Assembly (NCBI GenBank): GCA_021413735.1
Contig: JAIOPV010000065.1
Location: forward strand, 1-44,919
DNA: 44,919 bases
Direction: 5' to 3'
From: Planctomycetota bacterium
GTDB lineage: Bacteria > Planctomycetota > Planctomycetia > Gemmatales > Gemmataceae
The notes below the pieces were generated by a model. That model was not told where the DNA came from. It searched no databases and was given only the letters and a program-made list of their open reading frames with translations. Below, in pieces: positions 12,619 through 16,493 of this stretch; within the stretch, counting starts at the first letter, position 1, and each line of letters opens with the position of its first letter. The translations under genes and the position numbers were made by a program.

Positions 12619-12651
12619 TCGCTTCCTGTGGCGCGATCGGCTAAACTCCCA

Positions 12652-12690
12652 AAGCCCACCGATTGCCATCGGTGGGCTTGTTGCATTTTC
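12652..12690 (+). terminator. Rho-independent terminator after the VIT/vWA gene
   Basis: A perfect 12-bp stem AAGCCCACCGAT / ATCGGTGGGCTT (12652-12663 and 12668-12679) with a TGCC loop, followed by GTTGCATTTT. It begins 34 bases after the stop codon at 12618. Confidence 0.85.
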
Positions 12691-12705
12691 CACGGAGCCT
12701 CCCCA

Positions 12706-13563
12706 ATGAATTCCCACCCAATTGACCGCCGTTCGTTTCTGACATCTTCGGCGGCCGCTGCTGGCTTGCTCGCGTTGCCAAAGCTGGCAGTCGCAGAGGA
12801 AAAGAGCAAGATCAGCCTCGGCGTGCAGAGCTACACGTTCCGCAACTTCGATCTCGAACCGGCGCTGAAGCGAATGAAGGAACTCGGCCTCAAGAACGCC
12901 GAATTCTATTCGAAGCACATTCCCCCCGATTCCAGCCCTGAGAAGTTGAAGGGCATTCTCGATCTGTGCAAGGAATATGAGGTCACGCCGGTTGGTTTCG
13001 GCGTCTCGGGCTTCGGCAAGGATCACGAGAAGAACAAGAAGCTGTTCGAGTTCGGCAAAGCGGTCGGGCTGAAATATCTGAGCGCAAGCCCCTCGATGGA
13101 CGCCTTCGATAGCCTCGACAAGCTCTGCGAAGAGTACAAGATTGCGATCGCGATTCACCCGCACGGACCGTCAGGGAAGGGCCGCGATCAGTGGTGGTCG
13201 GCCGAGATCATCATGAAGGCGGTGAAGGATCACAACAAGCTCATCGGCGCGTGCCTCGACACGGGGCACCTTCTGCGGATGGCCCAACTCGGGGAAAAGC
13301 TCGACCCCGCCGAACAAGTAAAGATCATGGGCGATCGCAACTTCGGAATGCACTTGAAGGATCACGATAACAAGAAAAAGGAAGACGTCGTGTTCGGGGA
13401 TCCGAAGGGGACACTTGATGTTGCAGCAGTGTTCAAGGCGTTGAACGAAGTGAAGTTCGCGGGTGCGGTGTGCATCGAGTACGAAGCGAATCCATCGGAC
13501 CCTTCGCCCGACATGAAGAAGTGTGTCGCGTATGTTCGGGAGACGGTGAAGAACCTGGGCTAA
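12706..13563 (+). CDS. Tat-exported sugar phosphate isomerase/epimerase-like TIM barrel
   Basis: 285 residues from ATG 12706, preceded by GGAG. The upstream in-frame ATG at 12628 lies before the terminator hairpin and is unlikely. Residues 1-30 form a twin-arginine signal (DRRSFLTSSAAAAGLLALP, ending AVA). The rest is an AP-endonuclease-2/xylose-isomerase-like barrel. Likely metal and substrate residues lie in NAEFYS, IHPHGP, CLDTGHLL, HLKDHD and CIEYEANP. Such exported barrels are expanded in planctomycetes and often have sugar or myo-inositol-like substrates; the substrate here is unknown. A second, more divergent copy lies at 32046-32927. Confidence 0.88.
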   Translation: MNSHPIDRRSFLTSSAAAAGLLALPKLAVAEEKSKISLGVQSYTFRNFDLEPALKRMKELGLKNAEFYSKHIPPDSSPEKLKGILDLCKEYEVTPVGFGVSGFGKDHEKNKKLFEFGKAVGLKYLSASPSMDAFDSLDKLCEEYKIAIAIHPHGPSGKGRDQWWSAEIIMKAVKDHNKLIGACLDTGHLLRMAQLGEKLDPAEQVKIMGDRNFGMHLKDHDNKKKEDVVFGDPKGTLDVAAVFKALNEVKFAGAVCIEYEANPSDPSPDMKKCVAYVRETVKNLG

Positions 13564-13607
13564 TCCCAGATGGGTGTCGATTCGTATAATGGGGGACGGG
13601 GCACCCG

Positions 13608-13641
13608 CACCCCCGCGGACCGACCGCGGGGGTGTTCGTTT
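13608..13641 (+). terminator. GC-rich hairpin terminator or REP-like element
   Basis: A perfect 11-bp stem CACCCCCGCGG / CCGCGGGGGTG with a 5-base loop (13608-13634), followed by TTCGTTT. It lies 44 bases after the TIM barrel stop. A TATAAT at 13585-13590 just upstream has no convincing -35 element. Confidence 0.6.
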
Positions 13642-13688: not shown

Positions 13689-14618
13689 ATGACTCCTGAG
13701 GAAGTCGCCGAACTCCGAACGAGGAGGTACAACGGCACTGTCGTGTATCTCCAGAAGCTCCATTCCGATCTGATGGTAATGCGCGTCAAACCGGACTTTG
13801 ACCGACCCGCGCACCAAGCAGGGCAGTATTGCACACTTGGTTTGGGCTTTTGGGAGCCGCGAGTCGAAGGCTGCCAGCTCGAAGCCCTCAAGCCGGAGGA
13901 ATTGTCGAAGGTGGTTCGGCGGGCATACTCGATGAGTTGCCCTGTGGAGCTCGAGCCTGGGAAGTTATACGATCCAACTCCGACTGACTGGATAGAGTTC
14001 TACATCGTCCTCGTGCGTGAAAACGCCGACGGTCGTGTGCCAGCGCTGACTCCACGGTTGTTCGCTCTCAAGGAAGGGGATCGCATCCAGATCGGGGAGA
14101 AGGTTGCGGGGCACTACACTCTCGACCCCGTCCATCCCGGCGACAATGTGGTGTTTCTCGGAACCGGAACTGGCGAAGCGCCTCACAACTATATGCTGTG
14201 GGAGCTACTTAGCCGAGGACACACGGGCAAGATTCTCTCCGCGTGCTGCGTGCGATTTGGTCGCGACCTCGGCTACGTCGAGTTGCATCGTCGGCTGATG
14301 GGTGAGTACCCAAACTACAAGTATCTCGGCCTGACGACTCGGGAAGCGGGCTTGACGAAGAAGGTGTACATTCAGGATTTGATTACGGCTGGTGAGTTGG
14401 AGGATCATCTCGGAGCGCGACTCGATCCGAAGAATACGCACGTATTCCTGTGCGGTAACCCGAAGATGATTGGTGTGCCGATCCGCGACAAGGCAACTGG
14501 AAGCATTACGTATCCGCAGCCAACGGGAGTCATCGAGATTCTGGAAGGGCGGGGCTTCCAGGCCGACGTCTCGGCCACGAAGTTCAAAGGGAACATTCAC
14601 TTCGAAGAATACTGGTGA
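13689..14618 (+). CDS. Ferredoxin--NADP reductase (Fpr-type)
   Basis: 309 residues of the plant-type FNR superfamily. It transfers electrons between NADP(H) and ferredoxin or flavodoxin through FAD. The FAD domain (about 15-130) contains RRAYSMS, the RxYS FAD-binding motif. The NADP domain (about 135-309) contains FLGTGTGEAPHNYM and VFLCGNPKMIGV. The chain ends HFEEYW, the aromatic C-terminus typical of bacterial Fpr enzymes. ATG 13689 is preferred; an in-frame GTG at 13632 lies inside the preceding hairpin. The kinase gene starts 10 bases after this stop, so the two are probably co-transcribed. It may supply reductant to biosynthesis near accA. Confidence 0.93.
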   Translation: MTPEEVAELRTRRYNGTVVYLQKLHSDLMVMRVKPDFDRPAHQAGQYCTLGLGFWEPRVEGCQLEALKPEELSKVVRRAYSMSCPVELEPGKLYDPTPTDWIEFYIVLVRENADGRVPALTPRLFALKEGDRIQIGEKVAGHYTLDPVHPGDNVVFLGTGTGEAPHNYMLWELLSRGHTGKILSACCVRFGRDLGYVELHRRLMGEYPNYKYLGLTTREAGLTKKVYIQDLITAGELEDHLGARLDPKNTHVFLCGNPKMIGVPIRDKATGSITYPQPTGVIEILEGRGFQADVSATKFKGNIHFEEYW

Positions 14619-14627
14619 GGTGTGCCG

Positions 14628-15497
14628 ATGGCCGACGTGATGGAAATGATAGGCGGCTACCGCCTGCGGAACATGCTGCAAACTGGGCAGTTATCGCAGG
14701 TGTTTGAGGTGGTGGAGCCAACGAGTAATCGCCACTTCGCCATGAAGTTGCTGCTTCCGGAAGCAGCCGGCGTGACCGAACACCGGAACATGCTGTTCAA
14801 TGAAGCGGAAGTCGGGGAGAAACTGACGCACCAGAACGTGATCCGAATTTACAAAGTCAGCCGGAGCATGACGACGCCGCACTTCATTATGGAGTTCTTT
14901 CCTTCCGGCAGTTTGCGATTGCGGCTTCAAGCAAAGGAAATGGGCTTCGTGAAAGAGAATGCTCGGAAAATCTTCAAGGGGACAGCGACGGGATTGGCTT
15001 ACATGAACGCGATGGGCTACGTTCACCGCGACGTGAAGCCAGACAACATTCTGGTGAACGCACTTGGGGAAACGAAGATCATCGACTTTGCGATCACAAA
15101 AAAGATACCGAAGGGGATAAAGCGGTGGTTTTACCGCAAAAGCCGACCACAAGGAACGCCGAGTTTCATGAGCCCGGAGCAGATCAATGACGAGATGCCC
15201 GAGGCTCGACAAGACATTTACAGCTACGGTTGTACACTGTACGAACTGACGACGGGGCGACCTCCGTTCCGAGGCAGTACGACGAACGATCTCCTGAGTC
15301 GGCACTTCAAGGAGAAGCCCGCACCGCCATCATCCTACAACGCGGACATCACGGATGAGTTTTCGCAATTCGTGTTGAAGCTCATTGCGAAGAAAAAAAC
15401 GGATCGCCCTGCGAATTTCCACGAAGTCCTGATGGCACTGAAGAAGGTGAAGCAGATCTTCAAGTCGGTGACGGACAAGCACGACGAAGAAATGTGA
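14628..15497 (+). CDS. Divergent Hanks-type Ser/Thr protein kinase (DFA instead of DFG)
   Basis: 289 residues consisting of one cytoplasmic kinase domain without membrane span or sensor. The glycine loop is degenerate: LQTGQLSQV at residues 17-25 keeps only one of three glycines. Lys40 (FAMKLL) fits the ATP-anchoring lysine. The catalytic loop HRDVKPDN (H133, D135, N140) is intact. The metal-binding DFG is DFA (D153-A155). GTPSFMSPEQ and DIYSYGCTLYELTTGRPPF match the activation segment and F helix. It probably retains activity, since Lys, both Asp and Asn remain, but the DFG change is unusual. It lies between the ferredoxin reductase gene and accA, which suggests a link to fatty-acid or redox metabolism. 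Confidence 0.92.
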   Translation: MADVMEMIGGYRLRNMLQTGQLSQVFEVVEPTSNRHFAMKLLLPEAAGVTEHRNMLFNEAEVGEKLTHQNVIRIYKVSRSMTTPHFIMEFFPSGSLRLRLQAKEMGFVKENARKIFKGTATGLAYMNAMGYVHRDVKPDNILVNALGETKIIDFAITKKIPKGIKRWFYRKSRPQGTPSFMSPEQINDEMPEARQDIYSYGCTLYELTTGRPPFRGSTTNDLLSRHFKEKPAPPSSYNADITDEFSQFVLKLIAKKKTDRPANFHEVLMALKKVKQIFKSVTDKHDEEM

Positions 15498-15536: not shown

Positions 15537-16493
15537 ATGACAGTGCCGGCGCCGCTCCCGTTCGAGCAAGACATCCACGACATGGAGGAGCAGTTGGCGC
15601 GGCTTGAAGCGTCAGCGGAGGCAGCGGGGAGTACCGAGGCAATCCGTCGGATGCGGAAGGAATTGATCACATTAAAGCGCGATCGTTATGCGAACTTGAA
15701 GGCATGGGACACGGTTCTGGTCGCGCGTCATCCTGCTCGTCCGCAAACGATGGACTATGTCGAAATGATGCTCGACGAGTTTGTCGAGTTGCACGGAGAT
15801 CGGGCGTTTGGCGACGATCGGGCAATTCGGACCGGTTTCGCTCGACTCGACGGAGAGAAGCTCCTGCTGGTCGGACACCAAAAGGGGAAAACGCTCGCGG
15901 AGCGGCAGCAGTGCTATTACGGTTGCGCGCATCCCGAGGGATATCGTAAAGCGCTGGCGAAAATGCAACTGGCTGCGAAGTATCGGCTTCCGGTGGTGTG
16001 TCTGATTGACACACCGGGGGCGTTTCCGGGAATTGGGGCCGAGGAGCGCGGCCAGGCTCAACTGATTGCGACAAGCATTCTGGAGATGTCGCGTTTGCTG
16101 ACGCCGATTGTCTGTGTGGTGATTGGAGAAGGCGGTTCTGGAGGCGCGTTGGGGATTGGAGTGGGGGACCGCGTCGGGATTCTCCAGCATGCTTATTACT
16201 CGGTCATCAGCCCCGAGGGGTGCGCGGGGATCCTCTGGCGAAATGCGACGGAAGAAACGAAGCCGAGGGCAGCCGAGGCGCTCGGATTGACGTCAGTCCA
16301 GTTGCAACGATTGGGAGTCGTCGATCATGTCATCCCGGAACCGCTCGGAGGCGCCCACCGAGCACCGCGAGAAATGGCAAACACGCTGAAATTGTCACTG
16401 AGTCGCCATCTTCGCGAATTGGCACAAATCCCCCGCGAAAGCCTCCTGGCGGGCAGATACTCGAAAATCCGGGCGCTGGGCGTCCTGGGCTGA
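15537..16493 (+). CDS. accA: Acetyl-CoA carboxylase carboxyltransferase subunit alpha
   Basis: 318 residues, the normal AccA length. With AccD it forms the carboxyltransferase that makes malonyl-CoA, the first committed step of fatty-acid synthesis. An N-terminal coiled region (DIHDMEEQLARLEAS) is followed by the crotonase-like fold. Conserved segments include ELHGDRAFGDDRAI, CLIDTPGAFPGIGAEERGQA, the oxyanion-type GEGGSGGALGIGVGDR and AYYSVISPEGCAGILWR. GAGGG-like bases (GAGGGACAGGA) precede ATG 15537. It follows the kinase by 39 bases. No accD, accB or accC is in the window, so the complex is encoded at several loci. Confidence 0.97.
   Translation: MTVPAPLPFEQDIHDMEEQLARLEASAEAAGSTEAIRRMRKELITLKRDRYANLKAWDTVLVARHPARPQTMDYVEMMLDEFVELHGDRAFGDDRAIRTGFARLDGEKLLLVGHQKGKTLAERQQCYYGCAHPEGYRKALAKMQLAAKYRLPVVCLIDTPGAFPGIGAEERGQAQLIATSILEMSRLLTPIVCVVIGEGGSGGALGIGVGDRVGILQHAYYSVISPEGCAGILWRNATEETKPRAAEALGLTSVQLQRLGVVDHVIPEPLGGAHRAPREMANTLKLSLSRHLRELAQIPRESLLAGRYSKIRALGVLG

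Follow-up and report, generated by a model that had tools for sequence, protein, structure and literature searches.

The committed step of fatty-acid synthesis is under the control of a protein kinase in mammals, where AMPK phosphorylates acetyl-CoA carboxylase (ACC). Planctomycetota genomes encode anything from 4 to over 1,000 first-look Ser/Thr kinase candidates, and to our knowledge hardly any planctomycete Ser/Thr kinase has an assigned substrate. Post-translational regulation of heteromeric ACC has been described in bacteria for YhcB-AccA in E. coli, by protein binding and also AccA proteolysis (PMC12977641), and for PII/GlnB-BCCP in Synechocystis, by protein binding (PMC5080355); as far as the accessible parts of these two reports go, no kinase encoded beside accA is described there. 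Hanks-type kinases with altered nucleotide and metal motifs are also known in bacteria, as pseudokinase families (PMC12599244). The main text of that report contains no mention of "planctomycet" or "carboxylase", and the main text of a survey of planctomycete kinases (PMC11032199) contains neither "acca" nor "carboxylase". Likewise, we found no report of a kinase-accA pair in the open-access literature among the matches listed, and no open-access paper that combines planctomycetes, protein kinase, acetyl-CoA carboxylase and accA, or Rhodopirellula with kinase and carboxylase. Here we describe a distinct clade of Planctomycetota kinases that has conserved motifs and a deep, same-strand linkage to accA, and of which one member is encoded in the window, that is, the whole stretch of 44,919 nucleotides of Gemmataceae DNA that was analysed.

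The window kinase is a soluble Ser/Thr kinase of 289 aa encoded at 14628..15497 on the + strand, with an alternative GTG start at 14622 (+); its assignment to the accA-linked clade is based on its ORF, Pfam, the trees described below and an AlphaFold2 model. It is followed by accA (15537..16493, +; Pfam and NCBIfam), the gene for the carboxyltransferase alpha subunit of heteromeric ACC, and preceded by a ferredoxin-NADP reductase-like gene (13689..14618, +; Pfam and NCBIfam). An earlier reading of this DNA, made from the letters and open reading frames only (hereafter the sequence-only reading), had named these neighbours AccA and Fpr and had given the spacings as 39 and 10 bases. The 39 bases between the kinase gene and accA were confirmed, whereas the gap between the reductase and kinase genes measures 9 bases. 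Similarly, the name AccA stands, with an NCBIfam score of 403 bits that exceeds the cut-off of 357, but the reductase falls below the NCBIfam cut-off: its best model, the ferredoxin-NADP reductase PRK10926, gives 75 bits against a cut-off of 390 bits, and Pfam NAD_binding_1 matches at 2.5e-8. The upstream gene is thus best called Fpr-like, its identity not being certified by these models. Further upstream lies a TIM-barrel (AP_endonuc_2) gene with a TAT-like signal (12628-13563), a homologue of which is found upstream of the reductase gene in 17 of 20 other Gemmataceae loci, and between the TIM-barrel and reductase genes there is a 12-pair terminator-like hairpin (13607..13635, +), within which a possible GTG start of the reductase (13632, +) falls. 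This hairpin has the longest stem of the three terminator-like sites found and is a possible 5' boundary of the transcription unit, which is suggestive only because the number of such sites is no higher than the 3.5 expected from shuffles. No Rfam match was obtained close to the putative operon. The window genome contains a single accA match at E<=1e-55, and accD is located on a separate contig (C201), so that its ACC looks like the ordinary heteromeric type with dispersed subunits.

Judged by its core features, the window protein is a Hanks-type kinase and hence no new kind of enzyme. Its match to Pfam Pkinase (E 1.2e-48) reaches 166.3 bits, well above the cut-off of 31.7, nothing but kinase-type domains was returned by the Pfam scan, and the AlphaFold2 model has a full kinase fold (pLDDT 89.1, pTM 0.87). 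The nearest PDB match is PknB, both by sequence and by fold (for the fold, 5u94 with 28% identity). The residues listed in the sequence-only reading, namely Lys40, the HRD aspartate, Asn140, Asp153, the DFA motif and a single loop glycine, were all recovered: HRD occupies residues 133-135 (Asp135), and DFA, with Ala155 in place of the glycine of DFG, residues 153-155 (15084..15092, +). In the ATP loop (residues 18-23, Q-T-G-Q-L-S; 14679..14696, +), Gly20, the middle one of the three, is the sole glycine, and Gln18 and Ser23 replace the other two. The glycine loss is therefore real, but to call the loop degenerate was slightly overstated, since a serine is also found at the third position of M. 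tuberculosis PknB in our alignment. The window kinase thus has neither the DFG glycine nor the full GxGxxG, both of which are typical of Hanks-type kinases and not defining for activity. The absence of a membrane span was also corroborated (the highest 19-residue Kyte-Doolittle mean is 0.68), and the protein does not qualify as a PASTA kinase (PknB/Stk1, NF033483), as it scores 183.1 bits where 450 are required and has neither a span nor a PASTA domain.

A first tree compared 66 kinases, of which 63 were accA-linked and the others were L014, L032 and L049, with 53 paralogues, 27 from the window genome and 26, mostly the best-scoring ones, from four other genomes of its class. The two sets separated without misplacement (FastTree 0.817, UFBoot 95, with 99 for the subclade of the class). 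When 19 more profile hits, ten of them accA-linked, were added, the 85 clade members held together against the 53 paralogues (FastTree 0.941). The DFA motif had been presented as a peculiarity of the window protein, and this view had to be given up: 75 of the 85 clade members have Ser (40), Ala (32), Thr (2) or Asn (1) where DFG has its glycine, and ten retain the glycine, whereas none of the 53 paralogues has lost it. Other features are lost to varying degrees. The HRD arginine is retained in 51/85 clade members (and lost in 34/85) versus 51/53 paralogues, a threonine is present in the nine-residue stretch that precedes the GT motif in 23/85 versus 48/53, and the first loop glycine is kept in 2/66 versus 51/53. 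Lys40, Glu59, the HRD Asp, Lys137, Asn140 and the DFG Asp, on the other hand, are invariant in all 85 members, the window protein included. The atypical features are thus traits of the clade, and they speak for a functional kinase whose switch has been altered, and against decay. With PknB/PASTA-type Hanks kinases such as PknB of M. tuberculosis, the clade kinases thus have the kinase fold and the catalytic residues in common; unlike them, they carry DF[A/S] for DFG, have lost the first loop glycine, possess few activation-loop threonines and are fixed beside accA, and no membrane span or PASTA domain was found in the window protein. The clade is thus a conserved kinase family, probably an active one, that is genetically tied to ACC. 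A 1315-residue open frame around the clade kinase of genome G280, which we considered as a possible fusion, looks by eye like a shadow frame that lies upstream of the kinase gene.

The kinases that come closest to the window kinase in other planctomycete genomes share only 33-41% identity with it, yet 27 of the 29 with examined flanks adjoin accA. To avoid a choice by kinase score, we used accA-anchored sampling. The accA gene was detected in 346 of the 392 sampled Planctomycetota genomes, and its flanks (at most 4.5 kb on the upstream and 2.5 kb on the downstream side, less in some cases) were taken for 80 genomes among the matches listed, 39 of the same class (window genome excluded) and 41 from 40 other families. 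On the strand of accA and no more than 2 kb upstream of it, a clade kinase was present in 37/39 same-class and 4/41 other-class genomes, and the frequency in the class is more than chance would give. The class has two exceptions. In G257, a contig end truncates the kinase frame and the accA contig stops 399 bases upstream of accA, so that the pair may have been split by the assembly; in G365, the kinase is located away from accA. A profile of 12 clade kinases was also run on the 392 genomes, the best six first-look candidates per genome being scored; the clade line was set at a profile E<=3.9e-80, and only hits above this line were placed in the tree. Sixty-four genomes pass it, among them every one of the 40 class genomes (including that of the window), and in each of the 64 the top-scoring hit falls inside the clade. 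In 54 of the 64, accA directly follows the kinase gene on the same strand (38 from this one class and 16 from outside it, all from the single phylum Planctomycetota and hence not independent). These 54 genomes span 16 families (f1-f6, f11, f16, f36, f37, f50, f54, f62, f80, f81 and f98), and, at the level of proteins, the same-strand position directly upstream of accA was shown for 73 of the 85 clade members. The kinase and accA genes even overlap by 4-17 bases in f36, f80 and one of the two f98 genomes (with inferred start codons), which points to coupled translation.

The remaining ten genomes comprise three in which contig ends cut the locus (G257, G305 and G253), three in which the two genes are apart (G365, G126 and G080) and four in which accA was not found at E<=1e-40 though a clade kinase is present (G107, G006, G026 and G289). 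Adjacency is thus not obligatory, as clade kinases occur away from accA (in G365, G126 and G080, and also at the Gemmataceae locus L049) or in genomes without detected accA. Conversely, ACC does not need the kinase, because in the majority of the families sampled outside the class accA is present and no clade kinase was detected. As a neighbour control, the frames around accA at 59 loci of the class were grouped by similarity, and groups of at least five loci were considered; the counts are rough, accA itself having been lost to longer shadow frames at 13/59 loci and the kinase group including a few shadow or response-regulator frames. True kinases are found upstream of accA at 44/59 loci, across all of the six class families f1-f6. 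The remaining groups are each confined to between one and three of these families, as illustrated by a membrane protein of f2, f3 and f4 that looks CvpA-like by eye and an oxidoreductase group that, apart from one f2 member, is restricted to f1; the one exception is a mixed group of long reverse-strand frames that touches f1-f4 and probably consists of shadow frames.

Short peptide patterns run over the genome collection yielded 20 orthologous loci in Gemmataceae, including Gemmata, Zavarzinella formosa and Limnoglobus roseus, with 60-89% identity in the best segment. With the window counted, the reductase gene (FPR) is immediately upstream on the same strand at 21/21 of these loci, with gaps of 6-224 bases, and accA is immediately downstream of the kinase gene at 20/21, the exception being L049, where 6 kb of downstream sequence is without accA. 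The order reductase-kinase-accA is therefore a trait of the Gemmataceae and not unique to this genome, and the order kinase-accA extends to the 16 families mentioned above. This also bears on the proposal, made in the sequence-only reading, that the kinase regulates either NADPH/ferredoxin supply or malonyl-CoA synthesis: the wide kinase-accA order favours the link to malonyl-CoA, and the link to NADPH/ferredoxin finds support within the Gemmataceae only. In the 80 accA flanks of other families, no FPR was detected (tblastn, E<=1e-4), and we regard the link between the kinase and the ferredoxin reductase as weak.

Based on these data, our preferred view is that the window kinase represents, in the Gemmataceae, a separate clade of Planctomycetota kinases that have an intact catalytic centre, are encoded with accA and regulate ACC, most likely by phosphorylation; we consider that this view has about an even chance of being correct. 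A regulatory kinase that is linked so deeply and selectively to a single metabolic gene usually shares a function with it, which is why we propose that the kinase acts on ACC. We infer kinase activity, co-transcription, ACC as the target and the direction of control: the kinase would be transcribed together with accA and phosphorylate the AccA/AccD carboxyltransferase or a close partner, and this phosphorylation would set the supply of malonyl-CoA and fatty acids. The loss of the DFG glycine, the HRD arginine and the activation-loop threonines suggests that the kinase would be turned on by binding of a partner or ligand, or would always be on, and not be switched by activation-loop autophosphorylation in the style of PknB. 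A more specific and more tentative form of this view is that the clade represents an old group of dedicated ACC kinases that are activated by docking on the carboxyltransferase, in one family (f2) perhaps by way of a Pro/Gln-rich tether that bears a conserved peptide at its C-terminus, and that would control the committed step of fatty-acid synthesis by phosphorylation, as an independently evolved counterpart of the AMPK-ACC pair. AMPK would then be a functional parallel; it belongs to a different kinase family and acts on a single-chain ACC. A gene order that has outlasted the rest of its neighbourhood names ACC as a candidate target for one planctomycete kinase, and the conserved pair hints that planctomycetes may control fatty-acid synthesis by phosphorylation. 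If true, protein-kinase control of the committed step of this pathway would extend to bacteria. The clade would, moreover, provide a natural collection of kinases that function, provided they are active at all, in the absence of the DFG glycine.

It is possible, though on balance unlikely, that the kinase is active but has its substrates elsewhere, in growth, division or the envelope, and that its gene is located beside accA so that its level tracks the demand for membrane lipids. This would agree with the finding of no strong clade-specific phosphosite in AccA, with the persistence of the kinase in several genomes that have no accA nearby or no detected accA, and with the tail and C-terminal motif of the f2 kinases, which suggest a docking partner that need not be ACC. 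However, in the six class families accA is the neighbour that persisted as the rest were exchanged, and an argument based on expression leaves this constant choice of accA unexplained. We consider it improbable that the protein phosphorylates nothing and, as a pseudokinase or scaffold, only binds AccA or ATP. In favour of such a role one may cite that most clade members have lost the DFG glycine as well as one or two loop glycines; yet the DFG glycine is not itself catalytic, and the beta3 Lys, the helix-C Glu, the HRD Asp, the Asn and the DFG Asp are present in every member. The bacterial pseudokinase families mentioned above lose catalytic residues, and the definition given in the report that describes them, loss of the beta3 Lys, the HRD Asp or the DFG Asp (PMC12599244), does not apply to the accA-linked clade, which keeps all three in 85/85 members.

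There is only a slim chance that the kinase mainly controls the adjoining reductase, and thereby NADPH/ferredoxin. Such a role would explain the FPR gene directly upstream on the same strand at all 21 Gemmataceae loci, but not the lack of any FPR match in the 80 accA flanks of other families, 41 of which hold a clade kinase. Finally, that the kinase and accA genes merely stayed together by chance or inertia seems very improbable to us, even though the genomes are related and not independent and, in the kinase-rich genome G018, the gene of an ordinary kinase stops shortly before accA: it is one clade that is linked in 16 families, no other accA neighbour occurs in all six class families, and, with 166 kinase match rows in the 9.8 Mb window genome, a kinase would be expected only rarely in the position directly upstream.

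The kinase of G018 (family f24, locus L134) was omitted from the main trees as an ordinary kinase, and it falls outside the clade when added (FastTree 0.942). It is of the membrane type, carries DLG and has about 1,030-1,095 aa; its gene, which has the same orientation as accA, covers the stretch from about 3.4 to 0.13 kb upstream and ends 120-130 bases before accA. The genome has 332 first-look kinase candidates, and the position can be explained by chance in a kinase-rich genome, or else by a second recruitment.

With the preferred view of ACC as the target in mind, we searched 102 AccA proteins (59 from the class, 6 other linked and 37 unlinked ones) for columns with Ser/Thr/Tyr in >85% of the class and <50% of the unlinked proteins, and no strong clade-specific Ser/Thr was found in this set, which counts against ACC as the target, as do the clade kinases that occur away from accA or where accA was not detected. 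The sole AccA column that passed the filter, T189, was rejected as a clade-specific site, as it is Thr in 55/59 class and 6/6 other linked proteins but also in 16/37 unlinked ones. A phosphosite could be on AccD, AccB or AccC instead. A different position of AccA, Gly231 in the window protein, is Gly in 58/59 class proteins versus 1/37 unlinked ones, 36/37 of which have Ala or Ser.

The clade kinases that are not linked to accA have no neighbour theme in common among ten neighbouring frames at six loci. These frames include phosphoglucose isomerase and ApbE (L247), gyrase A (L244) and three without a family, besides those of L245 and L246. At L245 (genome G107, a single contig of 9.5 Mb, where 654 first-look kinase candidates were counted and accA was not detected at E<=1e-40), an FHA-domain gene comes after the clade kinase in the same orientation, and a radical SAM gene is also present. 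At L246 (genome G006, 66% complete, accA not found), the neighbours are a DUF1570 gene and, directly after the clade kinase on the same strand, an acyl-CoA dehydrogenase gene, which is another lipid-metabolism neighbour of a clade kinase.

The clade kinases also differ in their C-termini. The 27 members of family f2 have 433-548 residues, the shortest (L032) being cut by a contig end, and possess a Pro/Gln-rich tail of about 200-260 residues. In 21/27 of them the tail ends in an ELP[D/E/P]-type motif, which is ELPDV in 16 of these; in L060, L082 and others the conserved peptide that closes the tail is of the type DDLPFMDELPDVI. When M-[D/E]-E-L-P-[D/E]-V was sought with a narrow DNA pattern, it occurred once per genome in 6/6 genomes, at the 3' end of the kinase gene. 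A conserved peptide on a flexible tail looks like a docking motif. In the Gemmataceae, L046, L052 and L053 have shorter tails that end in IDIDSL, and the window protein has no tail. The ten clade kinases that keep DFG are L059 of family f5 and nine from genus g3 of f2 (L060-L065, L067, L069 and L072), and these nine g3 kinases also have HKD instead of HRD.
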